Source: Dehalococcoidia bacterium (GTDB lineage: Bacteria; Chloroflexota; Dehalococcoidia; Dehalococcoidales; W498). Taken from it: a stretch of DNA of 64,000 nt. Below the pieces are notes generated by a model. That model worked only from the letters and a program-made list of their open reading frames with translations, made no database searches and was not told the origin of the DNA. Below, piece by piece: positions 51,477 to 55,626 of this stretch. The translations under genes and the position numbers were made by a program. Numbering within the stretch: position 1 is the stretch's first letter; each line of letters starts with the position of its first letter. The stretch is taken from assembly GCA_011170285.1 (NCBI GenBank), contig DUEE01000014.1, positions 79,062-143,061 of the forward strand, written 5' to 3'.

Positions 51477-51549
51477 GCCCCCATCGTCTAGAGGCCTAGG
51501 ACACTGGCCTTTCAAGCCGGCAACATGGATTCGAATTCCATTGGGGGCA
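51477..51549 (+). tRNA. tRNA-Glu (anticodon TTC), no encoded CCA
   Basis: GCCCCCA/TGGGGGC acceptor stem; CTGGC-CTTTCAA-GCCGG anticodon arm; ATGGA-TTCGAAT-TCCAT T arm. Confidence 0.95.
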
Positions 51550-51560
51550 CTTACCCTCAC

Positions 51561-53456: not shown

Positions 53457-54836
53457 CTACATATTCTTGACCATATACTCTCCCTGCGAGCCATAGCCAA
53501 GCTCAGAGCGATAGTATTCCTTGGCTCCAACCCCGCTCAAAACTACCATTTGTTGTGCTTGGAATTCATCGCCAGCAATTCGCTCAGCCTCCCTCACTAA
53601 TGCCTTGCCTAAACCCTTATGCTGGGCTGCTTCTGGTTTCTGCTCAGTGAGGGAAACTTCGGGACCGTATATATGCAGCTCCCTTATAAGCGCTAAACTT
53701 TCCTCAACCTGCTTTCCTAGCGAGATTATGGGCTTAGATTGAATCCTCATCCGCAACAAGCCAAATAGTGTTTCATTTGCATCCTCAAAGGATAGGAAAA
53801 TCTCCTTACCTCCTGAAGCTTCATAGTCCATCCTCACCAGGTGAGGAGAACCTATTTCCCAACCATTGCGTGCTCGGTGACCATACTCCCGACACCTGAT
53901 GCACTTACATTCCATGGCTTGCCGCTCCATTCGCTGCTTAATCACATCCCGCAGTGAATCCTTTAAACCACCCACAATAAACTTGGCTGGAATGTCACGC
54001 AATACCCTTGAGATTCTAACGTATTTAGGCACAATGGACTTAATATCAATAAGTAAACTAATCATTTCGTCAGGCGGGTATGGGTGGTAGCGCCCATCCC
54101 GATACCATTTCTCCAACTCAGTGCCCTCCACTACCATAGTGGGATATAGCTTTAAGCCATCTGGTTTGAAGCTGTTATCATTAAATAACCTTGCCGATAG
54201 CTCTAAATCCTTGTCCTGGGTTGAGTCTGGTAACCCTGGCATCCAGTGGTAATGCACCTTAAAGCCATGCTCTTTGAGCAATCTGGTAGCTTTAACCACA
54301 TCTTCCACCTTGTGCCCTCTTCTTACCAGTCGGTAAATTTCGTCATCTAAGGTCTGAACCCCAAGCTCTACCCTGGTAGTGCCAAACTCAAGCATCCTAT
54401 CTATCTCTTCTTGCTGACACCAATCAGGTCTGGTTTCTATGCACAGCCCGGTACAGCGATGGTTAGCCATTTCGTTAAGCCGTTTTGCCCCTTCCAGGGT
54501 AGAAGATTCCTCACTATTTAAGGCATCAAAGCAATCCTTAATAAACTGGTATTGATAATCCTCAGGGTAAGCGAGGAAGGTGCCACCCATTACTATCAGC
54601 TCAACCTTATCTGTGGGGTGTCCCATTTCAGATAGAACCTTAAGCCTGAGCTCAATCTGCTTCTTGGCATCATAGCCGCACCTCTTAGCCCGTAGTACTG
54701 CTGGCGACTCTGGGGTATAACTCTGGGGTATAGATGGGTAAGTGGGACAATATATGCATTGTCCCGGGCACTTCATAGGCAAGGTCATAACCGCTACTGG
54801 GGTAACTCCAGATATAGTTCTTGCAAATTTCTTCAT
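53457..54836 (-). CDS. elp3: Elp3-family tRNA U34 carboxymethyltransferase (radical SAM + GNAT)
   Basis: MTLPMKCPGQCIYCPTYPSIPQSYTPESPAVLRAKRCGYDAKKQI; RPDWCQQEEIDRMLEFGTTRVELGVQTLDDEIYRLVRRGH; C-terminal acetyltransferase GLGKALVREAERIA...YYRSELGYGSQGEYMVK. Confidence 0.95.
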   Translation of the reverse strand: MKKFARTISGVTPVAVMTLPMKCPGQCIYCPTYPSIPQSYTPESPAVLRAKRCGYDAKKQIELRLKVLSEMGHPTDKVELIVMGGTFLAYPEDYQYQFIKDCFDALNSEESSTLEGAKRLNEMANHRCTGLCIETRPDWCQQEEIDRMLEFGTTRVELGVQTLDDEIYRLVRRGHKVEDVVKATRLLKEHGFKVHYHWMPGLPDSTQDKDLELSARLFNDNSFKPDGLKLYPTMVVEGTELEKWYRDGRYHPYPPDEMISLLIDIKSIVPKYVRISRVLRDIPAKFIVGGLKDSLRDVIKQRMERQAMECKCIRCREYGHRARNGWEIGSPHLVRMDYEASGGKEIFLSFEDANETLFGLLRMRIQSKPIISLGKQVEESLALIRELHIYGPEVSLTEQKPEAAQHKGLGKALVREAERIAGDEFQAQQMVVLSGVGAKEYYRSELGYGSQGEYMVKNM

Positions 54837-54917
54837 GTTATGCCATAAACAGTCTAGCAGATTAAAGCAACAAACAGAAATTCACCTGAAGGGCTCAAGC
54901 AACTAAATTAACTAATT

Positions 54918-54966
54918 CCCCTTCCCCTCAGAGGGGAAGGGGATAAATCCTTCACAGGTGAAGGAT
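54918..54966. repeat. Double-hairpin intergenic repeat (copy C) upstream of the methyltransferase
   Basis: CCCCTTCCCCT-CAG-AGGGGAAGGGG (11-bp perfect arms) then ATCCTTCAC-AG-GTGAAGGAT (9-bp perfect arms). Confidence 0.75.
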
Positions 54967-55626
54967 AAAGGGGATAGGGTGACTAGAGAAGTCTTTAACC
55001 AGATAGCCCCGGGTTGGTATAACTTCAGGCACTGGTCTATCTTCCGTGCCGAGCTAGAAGCACTGGCGCATAAGTGGCAGAAGGGCAAGCTACTAAACAT
55101 TGGCTGTGCCCATGGTCCCGACTTTTTGCCGTTTAAAGATGGTTTTGATTTATATGGCCTGGACTTTTCACCCGAGATGCTGAGATTTGCCCAAAAATAC
55201 TCCCAAAAATTCATTTTTACGGTAAAGCTGTCACTGGCAGAAGTTAGTTACCTTCCCTATCGTGATGCAACCTTTGACTGGGCAATCTCAGTAGCCACCT
55301 ATCACCATATAAGAGGTAAGGAGGAAGGGCAAGCAGCACTAAATGAACTGAGGCGGGTATTGAAGCCGGGCGGTGAAGCCTTTATCACGGTGTGGAATCG
55401 GTGGCAACCCAGGTTCTGGCTTAGCCGCCGTGAGGTAGCTGTGCCCTGGCGAAAACGGGATAAAACCCTGTATCGCTACTACTACCTGTTCTCCTACCAT
55501 GAATTAGAGCGGATGGTAAAGAAGGCTGGCTTTGAGGTAGTTAAATCCTTCCCCGAAAGCTCCTATCACTTTCCAATAAAGCTCTTCTCCAGGAATATAT
55601 GTCTTCTGGTGAAGAAGGGGGATTAA
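54958..55626 (+). CDS. Class I SAM methyltransferase, Trm9/ALKBH8-MTase-like (start could be GTG 54979)
   Basis: VFNQIAPGWYNFRHW; LLNIGCAHGPDFLPF; TFDWAISVATYHHIRGKEEGQAALNELRRVLKPGGEAFITVWNRW; VPWRKRDKTLYRYYYLFSYHELERMVKKAGFEVV; terminal SRNICLLVKK. Confidence 0.85.
   Translation: MKDKGDRVTREVFNQIAPGWYNFRHWSIFRAELEALAHKWQKGKLLNIGCAHGPDFLPFKDGFDLYGLDFSPEMLRFAQKYSQKFIFTVKLSLAEVSYLPYRDATFDWAISVATYHHIRGKEEGQAALNELRRVLKPGGEAFITVWNRWQPRFWLSRREVAVPWRKRDKTLYRYYYLFSYHELERMVKKAGFEVVKSFPESSYHFPIKLFSRNICLLVKKGD

Follow-up and report, generated by a model that had tools for sequence, protein, structure and literature searches.

A gene for Elp3 and a divergently oriented gene for a class I SAM methyltransferase, which stand side by side in a Dehalococcoidia bacterium, are likely to form a two-enzyme wobble-uridine pathway in which cm5U34 would be converted to mcm5U34, a reading offered without any tRNA modification data. 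The basis of this proposal is shown below and consists of homology, active-site conservation, synteny, co-occurrence and the absence of alternative pathways. We consider it likely that the methyltransferase is a bacterial Trm9-like enzyme that is paired with Elp3 and is probably independent of Trm112; it passes the sequence and active-site tests, and its chemistry is inferred. The pair lies in a stretch of 64,000 nucleotides, the whole of which is called the window here, and has the following features:

53457..54836, minus strand: elp3, 459 aa, tRNA U34 carboxymethyl radical-SAM/acetyltransferase
54837..54957: intergenic region of the divergent elp3 and methyltransferase genes, an arrangement kept in relatives
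54917..54943, plus strand: hairpin 1 of the methyltransferase leader, a 12-bp perfect inverted repeat
54947..54966, plus strand: hairpin 2 of the methyltransferase leader, which contains the first GTG
54958..55626, plus strand: Trm9-like class I SAM methyltransferase, 222 aa, GTG start, predicted cm5U34 carboxyl methyltransferase

The locus and its Elp3

An earlier, sequence-only reading of this DNA had described elp3 and the methyltransferase gene as divergent and 122 nt apart. This description held: both ORFs were found at the coordinates above, with 122 nt from start to start and 121 nt between the ORFs. The Elp3 of the window scores 583 bits against the model TIGR01211 (curated cut-off, 350) and aligns end to end, over residues 1-458, with the Elp3 of D. 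mccartyi of known structure, 5L7J (E 9e-201). The residues K77, K193, E386 and Y441, named as important in the D. mccartyi protein, DmcElp3 (PMC6367351), are all present with identical numbering, and the N-terminal extension of archaeal and eukaryotic Elp3 is missing. The protein is a clear ortholog of D. mccartyi Elp3 and meets both criteria for membership of the Elp3 family, the cut-off and the catalytic residues. The presence of Elp3 in an organism that also has the methyltransferase is thus shown; that its product is cm5U is inferred.

The probable start of the methyltransferase is not 54958 but 54979, likewise an in-frame GTG, because the SD-like AAAGGGGATAG lies upstream, the orthologs begin there, and the first GTG falls inside a hairpin. 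The leader hairpins are strong (fold z -2.8) and also occur in the nearest relative (L033/L004). A promoter and terminator scan of the elp3/methyltransferase intergenic region gave no match.

Identity of the methyltransferase

The Pfam domain of the methyltransferase is Methyltransf_11, an assignment that by itself says little about function, and Ubie_methyltran is also matched. The sequence-only reading had noted a Trm9/ALKBH8 motif string in this protein, and this claim held: VFNQIAP, TFDWAISVATYHH, VPWRKRD...RYYYLFSYHELERMVKKAG and SRNICLLVKK are all found, and these strings are the conserved blocks in the alignment of the orthologs (38 members). When the single sequence was searched against PDB sequences, fungal Trm9 came third, after two uncharacterised methyltransferases. 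When a profile of the 38 orthologs was searched against 177,635 PDB sequences, Yarrowia Trm9 (5cm2_Z, PDB entry 5cm2 being the source of the Yarrowia sequence used here) came first at E 4e-20. Its alignment extends into the C-terminal lid, and those of the next two matches break off about where the Rossmann core finishes. A profile restricted to the lid (the C-terminal 74 positions) had 5cm2_Z as its sole significant match in the PDB, at 7e-5, followed by a Brix protein at 0.19. In the reverse direction, Yarrowia Trm9 was searched against 20 genomes, and the elp3 neighbour was its best match in 18/18 carriers (E 3e-18 to 6e-10); the strongest match to any other protein was at approximately 1e-5.

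The predicted structure is confident, with a pLDDT of 88.7, and Foldseek placed an uncharacterised Clostridium methyltransferase at the top and 5cm2_Z at rank 2, with a TM of 0.83 by target length. The fold is crowded, many unrelated methyltransferases score similarly, and the ranking alone cannot discriminate between identities. In a tree of 52 proteins, the methyltransferase family and Trm9 were grouped (support 96/92), apart from 24 other class I methyltransferases and from the second family described below; the weight of this tree is limited by long outgroup branches and by the inclusion of only two Trm9 sequences. The methyltransferase and fungal Trm9 are only about 27% identical. Among class I methyltransferases, the protein of the window is closest to Trm9 by sequence and profile, and it is no generic Methyltransf_11 protein. 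A profile comparison of Trm9 with Methyltransf_11 or UbiE-like families was the check proposed in the sequence-only reading; the best profile match was Trm9, and the reading was not refuted.

Substrate-site residues

According to published work on yeast Trm9, the substitutions R29A, H115A, R241A, Y243A and N271A lower tRNA affinity and turnover (kcat) (PMC5372719). The five corresponding codons of the methyltransferase gene are as follows:

55027..55029, plus strand: R24, equivalent to yeast Trm9 R29, in 37/38 orthologs
55303..55305, plus strand: H116, equivalent to H115, in 38/38 orthologs
55474..55476, plus strand: R173, equivalent to R241, in the lid, in 38/38 orthologs
55480..55482, plus strand: Y175, equivalent to Y243, in the lid, in 37/38 orthologs
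55594..55596, plus strand: N213, equivalent to N271, in 38/38 orthologs in two outgroup-free alignments

The column of N213 and N271 moves once 24 distant outgroup methyltransferases join the alignment. The numbering of the S. cerevisiae Trm9 sequence used here fits each of the five residues as published, and this sequence has a match to 5cm2_Z with an E of 7e-72. All five residues together occur in none of 24 other class I methyltransferases taken from three genomes. The substrate-site criterion for Trm9 or the ALKBH8 methyltransferase domain is met, as shown by residue conservation.

Linkage and co-occurrence with elp3

Eighty related loci from GTDB genomes were compared. An elp3 match is present in 74, divergent in 74/74, with a median gap of 116 nt and with 63 pairs within 300 nt. 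Six loci have no elp3; in three of them the methyltransferase gene sits at a contig edge, and in one only 641 nt are available upstream. Two methyltransferase loci with full flanks (L078 and L099) have no elp3 within 6 kb, and there is at least one case (G063, locus L194) of Elp3 without the methyltransferase on the same contig. Where the flanks are full (n = 28), elp3 is kept in 26/28 loci and the other window neighbours in 0 to 14. We reject a general synteny effect: the trp genes and the neighbouring HIT, zincin, permease and RimI genes lack the conservation that elp3 shows. Conserved synteny with elp3 had been another check proposed at the outset; it is very strong, and here too the reading was not refuted.

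Across 156 genomes of the order, 122 have both genes, 18 have neither, seven have only the methyltransferase, and nine have only Elp3 (Fisher p 8e-12). This count is biased: several of the mismatches are genes truncated by the end of a contig, and incomplete assemblies lose neighbouring genes jointly, which inflates co-occurrence. Among the single-contig genomes of the order (n = 15), both genes are present in 14 and neither is present in one (G121). A survey of 399 genomes of the phylum found the methyltransferase in 27, with a clean score gap and all within one class, and Elp3 in 27/27.

Another neighbour had been cited as a likely substrate, namely, a tRNA-Glu(UUC) gene close to the pair. 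Its location held (51477-51550, about 3.4 kb away) and its relevance failed; a tRNA-Glu is nearby in 1/31 related loci, and we reject this neighbourhood as evidence and regard it as incidental. In a Dehalococcoides genome (L147:514-1062), a QueH-like gene, identified by eye, lies approximately 1.6 kb from the pair; QueH belongs to the queuosine pathway, which also concerns the anticodon wobble position.

A second Trm9-like family in other Chloroflexota

In other classes of Chloroflexota, 41 elp3 loci (L196-L201 and L205-L239) were inspected, and 35 of them carry a different, longer methyltransferase, called family 2 here, which is divergent from elp3 in 35/35, the two starts being 0.26 to 2.3 kb apart. 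Family 2 proteins have about 240 aa and the pattern FSATR..LHHIP..WQF..RYVH..LYQVW. The family 2 profile has 5cm2_Z as its top match in the PDB at 4e-12, barely ahead of the next at 5e-12; Trm9 alone is aligned from the N-terminal TR through the lid RYxH. Family 2 matches the family of the window (family 1) at 9.5e-26. R29, H115 and R241 are kept in 26/26 members, and the Y243 and N271 sites hold mostly V and W, respectively. Because two of the five Trm9 substrate-site residues are replaced, it is possible that the substrate of family 2 differs in detail from that of Trm9. Two diverged families of one superfamily are thus both tied to elp3 in the phylum, which is strong independent evidence of a functional link.

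Alternative wobble-uridine pathways and Trm112

Neither enzyme of the MnmE-MnmG route was detected in the order. MnmG was found in 0/20 order genomes, single-contig genomes included, and MnmE above the cut-off in 0/20, with only GTPase-domain matches below it; the bacterial controls were positive. CmoB was above the cut-off in 0/24 genomes and in 1/14 control genomes. Because MnmE, MnmG and CmoB are absent, Elp3 is, of the routes tested, the only one to C5-modified U34 that the order has. Two relatives (G001 and G121, with assemblies 93% and 75% complete) have none of Elp3, the methyltransferase, MnmE and MnmG.

Known Trm9 and ALKBH8 enzymes require Trm112 (PMC5372719). A search of the genome for a Trm112 homolog, another check proposed in the sequence-only reading, found a 60-aa Trm112p ORF in the window's own genome (G000:C8), beside QueD- and FolK-like genes and not beside the methyltransferase gene; a role as required partner is not supported. 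In complete genomes of Dehalococcoidaceae in which the pair is retained, the search for Trm112 gave no match or only weak matches inside long ORFs, and one genome (G001) has Trm112 without the pair. Trm112 as an obligate partner of the methyltransferase is therefore rejected on distribution, since it is absent from complete genomes with the pair. The Trm112-heterodimer criterion is not met, a judgement that uses genomic distribution only and does not exclude a divergent partner. In our opinion, the methyltransferase probably works without Trm112, although this is inferred from distribution only. A bacterial Trm112-like zinc-ribbon protein of 60 aa, encoded at L151:4814-4996, adjoins QueD- and FolK-like genes, and its distribution is independent of the Elp3/methyltransferase pair.

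Proposed pathway and rival explanations

In the proposed pathway, Elp3 would transfer a carboxymethyl group from acetyl-CoA onto C5 of U34 by radical SAM chemistry, giving cm5U, and the methyltransferase would bind the anticodon loop through its Trm9-type active site and esterify the carboxylate with SAM, giving mcm5U34. The targets would probably be tRNAs of two-codon boxes, e.g., Glu, Gln, Lys and Arg. This route would stand in for the absent MnmE-MnmG in Dehalococcoidales, probably without Trm112. The substrate, the product, the conversion of cm5U34 to mcm5U34, the tRNA set and the independence from Trm112 are all inferred. The sequence-only reading had claimed that the neighbour of elp3 completes the modification; this is supported computationally, and the presence of mcm5U in tRNA remains an inference. 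A bolder joint reading holds that the Elp3-to-Trm9 pathway is Chloroflexota-wide, with a divergent pair and two Trm9-like families, and that in Dehalococcoidales it replaces MnmE-MnmG and does not need Trm112. We lean towards this reading by a small margin.

Of the rival explanations, the one that survives best is that the enzyme is a Trm9 relative in an Elp3 pathway with another product, either because the Elp3-derived side chain is different or because mcm5U is an intermediate on the way to an amide, e.g., ncm5U. In its favour, the U34 derivatives of Elp3-bearing archaea are diverse, ncm5U in Thermoplasma being one of them (PMC5372719), and our evidence reaches no further than the association with Elp3 and the Trm9-like site. 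However, all five Trm9 substrate-site residues are retained, which argues for the identical substrate, cm5U, and we consider this rival unlikely. The second rival holds that chance has placed the enzyme beside elp3 and that it is a methyltransferase of the generic small-molecule kind, resembling UbiE/MenG or the like. The two Pfam matches and the Clostridium protein at the top of the Foldseek list speak for it. However, the UbiE/MenG models give at most 43.4 bits against curated cut-offs of 158-420 (216 for the best model, on which a UbiE/MenG identity is rejected), the lid matches Trm9 only, and the pairing with elp3 persists across the order as other neighbours change; this rival is very unlikely. 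The third rival is a CmoM-like enzyme that converts cmo5U34 to mcmo5U. CmoM is a class I methyltransferase that also methylates a carboxylate on a wobble uridine, but the identity is rejected and all but excluded, since CmoB, needed for cmo5U, is missing as described above, the 25 best NCBIfam matches include no CmoM model, and the genomic linkage is to elp3 and not to cmo genes.

If the proposal is correct, a tRNA pathway so far described in eukaryotes and some archaea would operate throughout a bacterial phylum as well, and the picture of split-codon-box decoding in bacteria would change. The order, of which D. mccartyi is a cultured member with an Elp3 that serves as a structural model, has no MnmE-MnmG and has Elp3 beside a Trm9-like enzyme with a full active site. 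The product of bacterial Elp3 becomes directly testable in strains already cultivated, and the methyltransferase may offer enzymology a Trm9 that is usable without Trm112.

Comparison with known systems

Archaeal Elp3/Trm9 pairs have been proposed, with the genes clustered in S. solfataricus (PMC2584109), and PMC6367351 cites a report of (m)cm5U34 in H. volcanii. According to a 2017 review of Trm112 (PMC5372719), no bacterial genes resembling its eukaryotic methyltransferase partners were detectable. In the open-access literature, we found no paper on a bacterial Elp3/Trm9 pair or on Elp3 in Chloroflexi/Chloroflexota; most subscription journals were outside the scope of this search. Archaeal plasmids searched for the pair yielded only a Natrinema elp3 with no methyltransferase gene adjoining.

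CmoM (SmtA) resembles the methyltransferase in that it also methylates the carboxylate on a modified wobble uridine in bacteria; however, its substrate is cmo5U from CmoA/CmoB, whereas CmoB is absent here. D. mccartyi Elp3 (5L7J; PMC6367351) is the direct ortholog of the Elp3 of the window, of equal length and likewise without the N-terminal extension; the published work found on it treats Elp3 alone, and the adjoining methyltransferase gene is unmentioned in the relevant sections (PMC6367351). The archaeal Trm9 candidates (H. volcanii HVO_0574/HVO_1032 and the Sulfolobus elp3-trm9 cluster; PMC2584109, PMC5372719) likewise combine Elp3 and a Trm9 homolog in a prokaryote in which the other Elongator subunits are absent. 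However, they are confined to a limited set of archaea, and the papers that we searched describe neither the bacterial family nor its divergent pairing throughout the phylum. Compared with eukaryotic Trm9-Trm112 (yeast YML014W; Y. lipolytica 5CM2) and the ALKBH8 methyltransferase domain, the enzyme described here is bacterial, is encoded next to elp3, shares only the low identity given above, has neither an AlkB nor an RRM domain, is without the long insertion that S. cerevisiae Trm9 has in its lid, and occurs in many genomes without Trm112. Nevertheless, it has in common with them the class I fold type, the five substrate-site residues and the motifs, that is, the N-terminal [VI][FY]NxIAP...R, HH, the VPW...YRYYxL lid and the terminal N, and Trm9/ALKBH8 acts downstream of Elp3, as is inferred for the bacterial methyltransferase.
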